NCBI RefSeq assembly: GCF_024220515.1
Contig: NZ_JAMXOT010000231.1
Location: 1 to 32,700 of the forward strand
Direction: 5' to 3'
From: Oscillatoria sp. HE19RPO
GTDB taxonomy: Bacteria; Cyanobacteriota; Cyanobacteriia; Cyanobacteriales; Laspinemataceae
DNA: 32,700 nt
Part shown: positions 1-24,302 of the stretch, piece by piece
Position numbering within the stretch: position 1 is the stretch's first letter
Layout of the letters: every line of letters begins with the position of its first letter
Notes under the pieces: model-generated
Told to the model about the DNA's origin: nothing
The model's database searches: none
Seen by the model: the letters and a program-made list of their open reading frames with translations, nothing else
Made by a program: the position numbers and the translations under genes

Positions 1-446
1 TTCTTCGGTTGGCATGAATTCGGAAACGACTGAAGTCGTTACTACCAACTAAGAAAATCCTTCTTCTGTTCGTAGTAACGACTTTAGTCGTTCTTCGGTT
101 GGCATGAATAGGGAAACGACTGAAGTCGTTACTACCAACTAAGAAAATCCTTCTTTTGTTCGTAGTACCGACTTCAGTCGTTCTTCGGTTGGCATGAATT
201 CGGAAACGACTGAAGTCGTTACTACAAACTTGGAAAATCCTTCTTTTGTTCGTAGTACCGACTTCAGTCGTTCTCCCTGAGTAAAGGATGAATCTGGAAA
301 CTACAAATTTGGAAAATCCTTCTTCCGTTCGTAGTAACGACTTTAGTCGTTCTTCTGTTGGCATGAATTGGGAAACGACTGAAGTCGTTACTACAAACTT
401 GGAAAATATTTCTTCCGTTCGTAGTAACGACTTTAGTCGTTCTTCT
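1..446. repeat. 90-bp tandem repeat array of nested palindromes
   Basis: Units begin near 1, 91, 181, 271 (a degenerate 79-bp unit), 350 and 440 (partial). Each unit carries two 21-base arms facing each other across about 26 bases, differing at one position. Each arm holds a smaller palindrome (ACGACT..AGTCGT), so a unit can fold as one large hairpin or two small ones. The array may continue left of the window. It lies downstream of the Hsp70-like gene on the minus strand. No reading frame is convincing here. Confidence 0.9.
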
Positions 447-6773: not shown

Positions 6774-6801
6774 AAAAAAAAGGCCCCTAACCAGTAGGGG
6801 C
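6774..6801 (-). terminator. Rho-independent terminator of the Psb34-like gene pair
   Basis: Read on the minus strand, GCCCCTA and TAGGGGC pair around a short loop and are followed by eight T residues. It lies 36 bases after the stop of the second-transcribed Psb34-like copy. Confidence 0.85.
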
Positions 6802-6836: not shown

Positions 6837-7007
6837 TTAGCTGATGGCGACTGCGGTAAAAATCGTCAAGGCTACGAGTAAAGCGGAGGCCGCACCGTAA
6901 GCAAGGTAACGCTTTTGTTGCTCAGGAGAGGGATACTCGGCGCGGTACATTTTGGGCTCGGTGGCAAAGTTGTTCAGAATTCCGTTTTCGTCAGTGCTGG
7001 TGTACAT
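6837..7007 (-). CDS. psb34: Psb34 / ssl1498-family small thylakoid protein, copy 1
   Basis: A 56-residue single-span membrane protein. The soluble N-terminus MYTSTDENGILNNFATEPK resembles that of high-light-inducible (Hli) proteins. A hydrophobic helix spans about 36-55 and the chain ends right after it. This fits Psb34 (Synechocystis ssl1498), known to bind photosystem II assembly intermediates containing CP47 and to influence Hli protein binding. The protein is identical to that of the copy at 7127-7297; the two genes differ at seven bases, all silent. GAGGAAAA forms a ribosome binding site before the ATG. A perfect HLR1 motif lies 20 bases upstream of the start and a strong terminator follows. 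Family assignment rests on memory of the N-terminal motif, length and topology. Confidence 0.8.
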   Translation of the reverse strand: MYTSTDENGILNNFATEPKMYRAEYPSPEQQKRYLAYGAASALLVALTIFTAVAIS

Positions 7008-7027: not shown

Positions 7028-7045
7028 TATGTAAATTAATGTAAC
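7028..7045 (-). promoter_or_regulatory. HLR1 motif (RpaB-type site) upstream of psb34 copy 1
   Basis: The minus strand reads GTTACATTAATTTACATA. This matches the HLR1 consensus (G/T)TTACA(T/A)(T/A)NN(G/T)TTACA(T/A)(T/A) at every constrained position. HLR1 is the known binding site of the response regulator RpaB at high-light and photosystem genes. A third, weaker half-site (TTAACATT) sits at the same 10-base spacing just upstream. Confidence 0.75.
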
Positions 7046-7126
7046 TGAATGTTAAGAAGTCTTGCCATAACTTGACTCATGCGGTTAAGTGTGGTATATA
7101 AACCACTCTTCATTAACCTTTGTAGA

Positions 7127-7297
7127 TTAGCTGATGGCGACTGCGGTAAAAATCGTCAAGGCTACGAGTAAAGCGGAGGCCGCACCGTAAGCAAGGTAGC
7201 GCTTTTGTTGCTCAGGAGAGGGATACTCGGCTCGATACATCTTGGGTTCGGTGGCAAAGTTGTTCAGGATGCCGTTTTCGTCAGTGCTGGTGTACAT
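7127..7297 (-). CDS. psb34: Psb34 / ssl1498-family small thylakoid protein, copy 2
   Basis: The second gene for the identical 56-residue protein, exactly 290 bases from the first. The ATG at 7295-7297 was chosen rather than an upstream in-frame start (14 codons earlier), because the same ATG and ribosome binding site (GAGGAAAA) are conserved in both copies. Seven third-position differences separate the two reading frames, all silent. About 88 bases upstream of each gene are also similar, so the duplicated unit includes the control region with its own HLR1 site. No terminator is visible between the copies. Transcription from this promoter could therefore run on into copy 1, giving a two-dose operon. 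Confidence 0.82.
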   Translation of the reverse strand: MYTSTDENGILNNFATEPKMYRAEYPSPEQQKRYLAYGAASALLVALTIFTAVAIS

Positions 7298-7317
7298 TTC
7301 GTTTTTCCTCGGTGTCT

Positions 7318-7335
7318 TATGTAAATAAATGTAAC
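7318..7335 (-). promoter_or_regulatory. HLR1 motif (RpaB-type site) upstream of psb34 copy 2
   Basis: The minus strand reads GTTACATTTATTTACATA, again a full match to HLR1, at the same distance (20 bases) from the start codon as in copy 1. The two spacer bases differ between copies (TA versus AA) while both half-sites are unchanged. Confidence 0.75.
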
Positions 7336-7431
7336 GCAATGTTAAGAAGTGTTGCCGTGACTTGACGCACGAGGTTAGGTGATGCTAGTCACAACGGGCT
7401 AAAGTTGAAGCTGGGAGGGAAAGATGGAGTG

Positions 7432-7561
7432 ATACGGAATCCGGTTGGGATAGGTCGGTAAAAACCCACACCCGTTAACGGTGGGACACTCGCGGATTGA
7501 GCGGAGCCCCACCGTTAACGGGTGCGGGTTTTTATAGACCTTTGAATGCCGGAATCCGTAT
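7432..7561. mobile_element. Family A miniature inverted-repeat element, copy 1
   Basis: The ends are ATACGGAATCCGG and CCGGAATCCGTAT, inverted repeats with one mismatch. The inside is one long hairpin: 27-base arms (7459-7485 and 7508-7534) pair with one mismatch. It is about 130 bp with no coding capacity. Its right half matches the left halves of the copies at 14344 and 31811, so it is inserted in the opposite orientation. Confidence 0.8.
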
Positions 7562-23567: not shown

Positions 23568-24302
23568 CTATACGGCTTGGGGGTTTTCATTAGCCGGTGC
23601 AGTGCTCGGTAACTCTAAGCAATAACCGGCACCATAGACCGTTTTAATGTAGCGAGGATGTCGAGGGTCGGGTTCGAGTTTCGTCCTCAGATGCCTAACA
23701 TGAACCCGAATCGTTTCGATATCATCATCGGGGTCATATCCCCAAACTTCTTTGAGAATTTCACTAGGAGAGACCGTTTGGCCGTGACGTTGCAACAAGC
23801 AGTGCAACAGTTCAAATTCCAAGTGTGTCAGCTTGACCGTGCGATCGAACCAAATGGCTTCAAACCGTTCGGGGACGAGAGTCAGGGGTCCATAGTTGAG
23901 AATCTCCGCGTGTTTGGCAGCCTGGGGAATGCGATCGGTGCGTCGCAACAAGGCTCTCACCCGTGCAAGCATTTCTTCAACTTCAAAGGGTTTAGTCAGG
24001 TAATCATCAGCGCCTGCATTGAAACCTTCGACCTTATCATGGGTTTGACCTAAAGCTGTCAGCATCAGGACGGGTATATCGGCAGTCCGCTCATCACGAC
24101 GAAGCCGTTGACATACGGTGAATCCATCCACCCGAGGCAGCATCAGATCGAGCATGATTAAATCGGGGATCAGTTGCAGTGCAAGCGCTTGACCTTTGAT
24201 GCCATCTTCGGCTTGACTGACTTCATAGCCAGCCATCTCCAGATTGACGGCGACTAATTCTGAGATTGCAGGGTCATCGTCAATGACGAGTATCCGGGGC
24301 AT
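23568..24302 (-). CDS. rpaA: Response regulator RpaA (circadian output, OmpR family)
   Basis: A 244-residue OmpR/PhoB-type transcription factor. The receiver domain at about 1-118 has acidic pocket D8-D10 and phospho-acceptor Asp52 ([10 protein letters not shown]). The winged-helix DNA-binding domain is at about 140-230, with [20 protein letters not shown] and [19 protein letters not shown]. The sequence [31 protein letters not shown] and the [14 protein letters not shown] linker match the highly conserved RpaA family, not RpaB. RpaA is phosphorylated by SasA under control of KaiC and drives dusk gene expression. The ATG at 24302 lacks a clear ribosome binding site; a 14-bp palindrome lies just upstream. 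It is monocistronic and converges with chlP. Confidence 0.95.

Follow-up and report, generated by a model that had tools for sequence, protein, structure and literature searches.

HLR1 sites as predicted RpaB operators before the tandem psb34-like genes of Oscillatoria sp. HE19RPO and their relatives

The stretch of Oscillatoria sp. HE19RPO DNA analysed here, 32,700 nucleotides long and referred to below as the window, carries two psb34-like genes in tandem, each closely preceded by a match to the HLR1 motif. The question raised by this locus is whether these matches are operators of the regulator RpaB, or whether they owe their presence to promoter composition, to another regulator or to the duplication itself, and what such operators would mean for genes related to the photosystem II (PSII) assembly factor Psb34.

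The two psb34-like copies and their HLR1 sites

The genes and sites concerned are the following:

6837..7007, minus strand: psb34-like gene copy 1, 56 aa, MYT-type Psb34 clade
7127..7297, minus strand: psb34-like gene copy 2, 56 aa, MYT-type clade, protein identical to that of copy 1
6783..6801, minus strand: terminator-like hairpin and T run after copy 1
7028..7045, minus strand: HLR1 of copy 1, GTTACATTAATTTACATA, perfect consensus, no mismatch
7318..7335, minus strand: HLR1 of copy 2, GTTACATTTATTTACATA, perfect consensus, no mismatch
7048..7055, minus strand: third, weaker half-site of copy 1, TTAACATT, in 10-bp phase, one mismatch in eight
7338..7345, minus strand: third, weaker half-site of copy 2, TTAACATT, in 10-bp phase, one mismatch in eight

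The 56-residue length and the LNNFA.EP motif of the window proteins are Psb34-like traits. Both are shared with the PSII assembly factor Psb34 (Ssl1498/Tsl0063), as is a score above the equivalog cut-off of the NCBIfam Psb34 model NF033486 (92.2 bits vs 45, copies 1 and 2 alike). The only solved relative found for the window proteins is Tsl0063 (7dxa/7dxh/7nhp/7nhq; E = 3e-8), and Ssl1498 is described in PMC9458560 as binding CP47-containing photosystem II complexes. A similar N-terminal LNNFA.EP motif is present in HliA/HliB. In contrast to a Hlip, which is recognised by its chlorophyll-binding Cab domain, the window proteins are without that domain, since the Pfam search of copies 1 and 2 returned no match.

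The tandem copies form one direct repeat of 262 nt, 92% identical. The hairpin after copy 1 is one of two such sites in the window, against 1.0 expected, and is weak when taken alone. Upstream of copy 2, a large imperfect inverted repeat is found (7432-7485 and 7508-7561; 54-nt arms, 81% complementary). The third psb34 gene of this genome, which is of the canonical type, is located on another contig (G000:C202, L030). The window gene also occurs in three Laspinema records and one Phormidium pseudopriestleyi record, with 91-96% protein identity. A viral origin was considered and rejected: there was no match in the phage collection, and none of 122 candidate stretches from viral contigs was confirmed.

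The HLR1 consensus, KTTACAWWNNKTTACAWW, is printed in the review PMC13421787 and in the Acaryochloris study PMC11633204. Without mismatch it occurs exactly twice in the window, both times on the gene strand, and it is absent from 100 dinucleotide shuffles; both 18-mers end 20 bases before their ATG. This exact scan confirms the perfect sites that the first-pass annotation had reported before both copies. When up to two mismatches are allowed, five matches are obtained in the window versus 0.70 expected, two of which are the third half-site paired with the first. The weaker third half-site, likewise reported earlier as being in phase, is indeed present in both copies, but it is not strictly kept in the genus. 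Across the 13 genes of the window's genus it reads TTAACATT in 8, TTAATATT in 3 and TTAAAATT in 2; being altered in 5/13 genes, it is ruled out as a strict element.

The first-pass annotation had furthermore taken the combination of differing spacers and unchanged half-sites as a sign of selection. As an argument this is weak, because the spacer difference inside the 18-mer amounts to one base only and because both sites sit within the same highly identical repeat. Consequently, the two sites are not independent witnesses, and the window pair alone cannot show selection. Selection on the half-sites does receive support, but only from the wider comparison within the genus and across the phylum.

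A separate Psb34 clade and the conservation of its HLR1

Profile searches covered 386 genomes of the phylum, queried with the Psb34 model and with a window-type alignment, as well as 8 genomes from the window's genus. Two-profile scoring assigns at least 93 genes, from at least 56 genomes, 35 genera and 17 families, to the MYT type, which is the clade of the window copies; the smallest profile margin is 10 bits for the MYT type (L272) and about 32 bits for the canonical type. Since the 93 genes come from among the matches listed in the ranked results, divergent MYT-type members may be missing from them, and the 101 canonical genes used for comparison are the best-scoring ones plus 8 of the window's genus, not all those in the phylum. 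Before counting, truncated second views of counted genes (at L126 and L258) and two loci with no ATG near the model start (L257, L269) were dropped, and genes present under two loci were merged; a match with internal stops (G278, L265) lies outside the 93.

The two profiles were built from groups pre-sorted by their opening residues, so that the two-group split is partly built in. For this reason a tree was made, which is itself free of such sorting. Its 194 proteins split completely into 93 and 101 tips, with local support of 0.71-0.89 on either side of the root. The window copies thus fall into a clade separate from that of the characterised Psb34, with Tsl0063 and Ssl1498 themselves standing outside the tree; Tsl0063 reads as the canonical type by its letters alone (EGGRLNNFAIEPKVYQA). 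Among the genes fetched, 54/56 genomes with an MYT-type gene also have a canonical copy. Two or more MYT-type copies are present among those fetched in 24/56 genomes, and close pairs or triplets are seen in other genera too (G068:C2, G272:C5, G376:C1, G354:C312).

For the phylum set, HLR1 was scored as its 16-base core in the stretches upstream of the ATG of the 93 listed MYT-type genes. On the gene strand, at -100..0, a perfect core is found in 23/93 genes, a core with at most one mismatch in 80/93 and with at most two in 87/93. Leaving out the 13 genes of the window's genus gives 67/80 and 74/80 for the two latter thresholds, and 16/17 families hold at least one gene with a site of no more than two mismatches. 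The other strand yields 0/93, as does the interval -200..-100, and 3/93 matches are present at -300..-200. Dinucleotide shuffles of the same upstreams reach 0.2% (at most one mismatch) and 2.3% (at most two). With the upstream stretches reversed but not complemented, 16/93 and 34/93 are obtained; this control was judged unfit because the reversed site nearly fits the pattern, and the conclusion is based on the controls for strand, position and shuffling. The six misses comprise four genes with 3 mismatches and two with 7; the latter are L271, which encodes a longer protein, and L258, which comes second in a run of psb34-like genes in G354.

The canonical psb34 genes give only 5/101 matches under the same conditions (gene strand, -100..0, at most two mismatches). 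Their opposite strand carries such a match within 100 nt in 32/101 cases (at loci such as L106, L111, L060 and L166), which is a different arrangement, many of the matches starting about 80-98 or 41-46 nt before the ATG. The canonical gene of this genome, L030, differs from the window copies in having no HLR1 within 300 nt, the best match on either strand showing 5 mismatches.

Plasmid copies in named strains, including Nostoc PCC 7524, Gloeothece PCC 7424, Stanieria PCC 7437, Tolypothrix PCC 7601 and Planktothrix agardhii, were also inspected. HLR1 with at most two mismatches precedes 10/11 genes with their own ATG, versus 0/11 at -200..-100; these come from 15 of 21 records, those fetched, of which 4/15 were left out as having no ATG at the match, and the strains may overlap with the phylum genomes. 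On the plasmids of Gloeothece PCC 7424 (L345) and Aulosira laxa (L352), the Psb34-like stretch ends longer proteins, of 100 and 150 residues, and both stand near orange-carotenoid-protein genes.

A tandem pair is found in 6/8 genomes of the window's genus, and one may ask whether HLR1 is simply a functionless leftover of the duplication. The near-identity of the copies over the whole 262-nt repeat would fit such an origin, and so would the similarity of the gene copies: paralogues within one genome are 83-96% identical, the window genome having the highest value (96%), while orthologues average 87-88%. Paralogues being about as alike as orthologues, copying between copies is possible, most clearly in the window genome. 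What speaks against a leftover is that 16/18 HLR1 columns are invariant in 13 genes from 7 genomes of the genus, compared with 19/40 adjoining columns (Fisher p = 0.003), and that a site with at most two mismatches persists in 16/17 families. We therefore regard a functionless remnant as extremely improbable. HLR1 before the MYT-type genes is real and conserved and, as judged from sequence, is placed to repress.

Promoter anatomy and upstream elements

The promoter elements predicted around the two sites are:

7038..7043, minus strand: TACATT, the predicted -10 box of copy 1, lying within the first HLR1 half-site, from the 90-relative profile
7328..7333, minus strand: TACATT, the predicted -10 box of copy 2, lying within the first HLR1 half-site, from the same profile
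7031, minus strand: predicted start of transcription for copy 1, with -7 assigned to the final base of the -10 box, give or take a few bases
7321, minus strand: predicted transcription start of copy 2, from the profile, uncertain by a few bases
7061..7067, minus strand: weak, GGCAA-like -35 box region of copy 1, from the anchored profile and genus alignment
7351..7357, minus strand: weak, GGCAA-like -35 box region of copy 2, from the anchored profile and genus alignment
7071..7076, minus strand: GTCAAG box of copy 1, next to the -35 region on its upstream side, from upstream motif counts
7361..7366, minus strand: GTCAAG box of copy 2, next to the -35 region on its upstream side, from upstream motif counts
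7378..7393, minus strand: CRP-like palindrome of copy 2, TGTGACTAGCATCACC, from a motif scan

A profile anchored on HLR1 was compiled from 90 genes of 34 genera with equal weight per genus, the 3/93 poorly anchored genes being left out. It displays a TTGAC(A)-like hexamer at offset -21..-16 and, after 17 bp, TA[C/T/A]ATT at offset 2..7. The anchoring procedure in itself favours offsets 0 and 10; the -35 hexamer played no part in it. The location of TA[C/T/A]ATT, 17 bp after the -35 hexamer and on the first half-site, therefore suggests that the predicted -10 box and the first HLR1 half-site are one and the same. The C of the first half-site is relaxed (43%, with T at 33% and A at 23%), which is what the use of the same bases by a -10 box and a half-site would lead one to expect; the C of the second half-site is kept at 97%. 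In the window's genus the -35 is poor (CTGCAA, CGGCAA and the like), and a plain consensus promoter scan gave no promoter-like pair at either copy, so that the start stays a prediction.

With the last base of the -10 box set at -7, HLR1 spans about -14 to +4 relative to the predicted start. This corresponds to the published position for repression, as the rule given in PMC13421787 assigns repression by RpaB to sites at -38..+23 and activation to sites at -45..-66; in the Synechocystis scp genes, HLR1 is reported at 3-13 bp before the start (PMC6331805). Indeed, the hli (scp) RpaB operators of Synechocystis PCC 6803, as described in PMC6331805, resemble those of the window clade in the 18-base consensus, in a core promoter beside the start and in serving genes of the same pathway. 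The window clade may be distinguished by the first half-site coinciding with the predicted -10 box, and differs in the GTCAAG box and, in five families, the CRP-like palindrome at a set distance.

From the closeness of HLR1 to the start codon, the first-pass annotation had proposed repression at or downstream of the transcription start. Repression at the start is supported across families, but a site downstream of it is not, as the footprint lies over the predicted -10 box and start. It is this promoter footprint, and not the distance to the ATG, that places HLR1.

The same overlap invites a simpler reading, in which the conserved block amounts to no more than a strong, AT-rich core promoter, made of a TANATT -10 box and an A-rich leader, that looks like HLR1 by composition. 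The coincidence of the first half-site with the -10 box, with its C relaxed as in a promoter element, is what such a reading predicts. The second half-site, TTTACATA, however, is situated past the -10 box and shows the highest conservation of all parts (C 97%, central A's 100%, at a position that anchoring favours, as it does offsets 0 and 10 in general). Furthermore, shuffled upstreams, which retain composition at the dinucleotide level, reach 2.3% versus 87/93 for the genes themselves, and the canonical genes reach 5/101 on the same strand. Composition by itself is thus very unlikely to account for the site, and a core promoter fused to an operator is retained as the preferred reading.

Two further elements accompany this promoter. 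GTCAAG is present within 120 nt of the ATG in 71/93 listed MYT-type genes, versus 6/93 at -240..-120 and 5/101 canonical genes, and 65/71 occurrences (well-anchored genes) start 31 to 33 bases before HLR1. The box is rare before the Psb35-related (3/31) and 81-aa (4/30) genes discussed below. Its interpretation as a mere inverted HLR1 half-site is not favoured, the C being kept where HLR1 needs A. On the strength of these upstream alignments, the conservation of the GTCAAG box points to a further regulator.

The second element, the CRP-like palindrome, was found before copy 2 and not before copy 1, where a different dyad is present (GTGGTATATAAACCAC, 7091-7106). TGTGA-N6-TCACA with at most one mismatch occurs within 150 nt of the ATG in 16/93 MYT-type genes, belonging to five families, and in 0/93 at -300..-150; canonical genes have it in 2/101 cases at -150..0. 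The palindrome starts 58 bases before HLR1 in 14/16 genes and 38 or 48 bases before it in two, in which the anchor has seemingly slipped, and the 15 genes with both elements have palindrome and GTCAAG 27 bases apart, start to start. The Crp helix family has seven matches in the genome, one of them in a protein with a RETVTR helix (L339), which we take to resemble that of E. coli CRP. TGTGAN6TCACA is the cyanobacterial CRP consensus published in PMC2633013; in the known CRP promoters described there, the -10 box follows about 22 bp after the site, compared with 44 bp between palindrome and predicted -10 box in the present genes.

RpaB, the other HLR1 genes of the genome and the predicted light response

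RpaB is encoded in this genome (G000:C86:9603-10283) by the single match above the cut-off of its model (398.6 bits vs 330). A further 150 weaker matches, the best of which reaches 227 bits, are present, and some of these proteins could use similar half-sites. The window itself encodes an OmpR-type response regulator (23616-24290, minus strand), which with 222.8 bits scores well below the RpaB cut-off of 330.

Genome-wide, the 16-base core of HLR1 has 27 matches versus 5 for the backwards pattern. The sequence GTTACATTNATTTACATA accounts for five of the 27; these precede both psb34-like genes, one gene each of Hlip-like and Psb35-related type, and a gene for an 81-aa protein. Another core match precedes the ATG of a psbA fragment by 63 nt, and several others lie inside or far from open reading frames. 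The gene L024, with 71 aa, scores below both library cut-offs, and we take it to be Hlip-like from its sequence; it has the same operator as the window copies. The Psb35-related gene reaches 146 bits with NF047380, whose cut-off is 80. The 81-aa gene (L015/L279, G000:C283:13682-13924), preceded here by a perfect HLR1, has no Pfam or NCBIfam match and is found in 48/373 genomes.

The two latter genes were followed in relatives. Psb35-related genes are matched in 71 genomes; in a sample of 30 loci (31 genes) from these, HLR1 with no more than two mismatches is located at -150..0 in 24/31 genes, 16 of them perfect, with 3/31 on the other strand and 1/31 at -300..-150; 3/7 genes without HLR1 stand behind a same-strand psb34-like gene (G354 twice, G191). 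The corresponding sample for the 81-aa gene, 30 loci from the 48 genomes, gives 7/30, and 3/30 on the other strand. In G056, the 81-aa gene immediately follows a psb34-like gene. PMC9458560 proposes that Psb34 and HliA/B compete for a single position on PSII and that Psb35 stabilises Hlips, which makes a common switch for the psb34-like, Hlip and Psb35-related genes reasonable.

It has to be considered whether the main regulator acting at HLR1 is a different OmpR-type protein, namely RpaA or a paralogue, which would imply clock or salt control rather than light stress. Relatives of the OmpR type or with a receiver domain are numerous in the genome (the RpaB model has 151 matches, of which one exceeds the cut-off), and control of the scp genes by RpaA under salt stress is suggested in PMC6331805. 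Nevertheless, both the consensus and its place over the start are as published for RpaB at hli, nblA and psbA (PMC13421787, PMC11633204, PMC6331805), and the genes sharing the site in this genome include the Hlip-like, Psb35-related and psbA genes. Another principal reader is, in our estimation, quite unlikely. The assignment of HLR1 to RpaB and to light-stress control, as proposed in the initial annotation, is instead supported by the cross-family comparison and by the single RpaB-family gene above the cut-off.

Collectively, the data make it very likely that each of the two copies is driven by a separate core promoter into which an RpaB operator is built, and which is predicted to be repressed in low light and released in high light. 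The first HLR1 half-site would double as the -10 box and the second would cover the transcription start. In low light, RpaB seated on HLR1 would block RNA polymerase; in high light, or when the chain is over-reduced, RpaB would leave and the psb34-like protein would be made. The Hlip-like, Psb35-related and 81-residue proteins, which share the same operator in this genome, would be made together with it. Of this picture, the analysis itself shows the sites with their conservation and placement, the -35/-10 geometry in relatives, the clade and an RpaB-family gene; the transcription start, the binding of RpaB, the direction of the light response and the role of the protein at photosystem II are inferred.

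A literature search, with the published RpaB target list outside it, returned no paper joining psb34/ssl1498 with HLR1 or RpaB, and a search for psb34 paralogues or psb34-like genes returned none reporting a paralogue. The mechanism is the known one of RpaB; its association with a separate Psb34 clade and the architecture of the promoter are the apparently new features. A more far-reaching proposal, put forward tentatively and with more doubt than conviction, is that the MYT-type genes encode a second, stress-inducible family of Psb34 isoforms, repeatedly duplicated, whose members take the place of canonical Psb34 and HliA/B on CP47, or compete with them for it, when light is in excess. The promoter would then act as a compact integrator in which the -10 box forms part of the RpaB operator and an activator binds the GTCAAG/-35 dyad, at about -46 to -30. 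A CRP-type site would be added farther upstream in several families, and one small gene would in this way answer to light stress as well as to a second signal.

For the biology of these cyanobacteria, the psb34-like genes are probably repressed in dim light and derepressed in bright light. The prediction that follows is that a widespread clade of Psb34 paralogues forms part of the RpaB high-light set alongside Hlip and Psb35-related genes. Whether isoforms are exchanged on CP47 while photosystem II is being repaired thereby becomes directly testable, with exact bases available for mutation.
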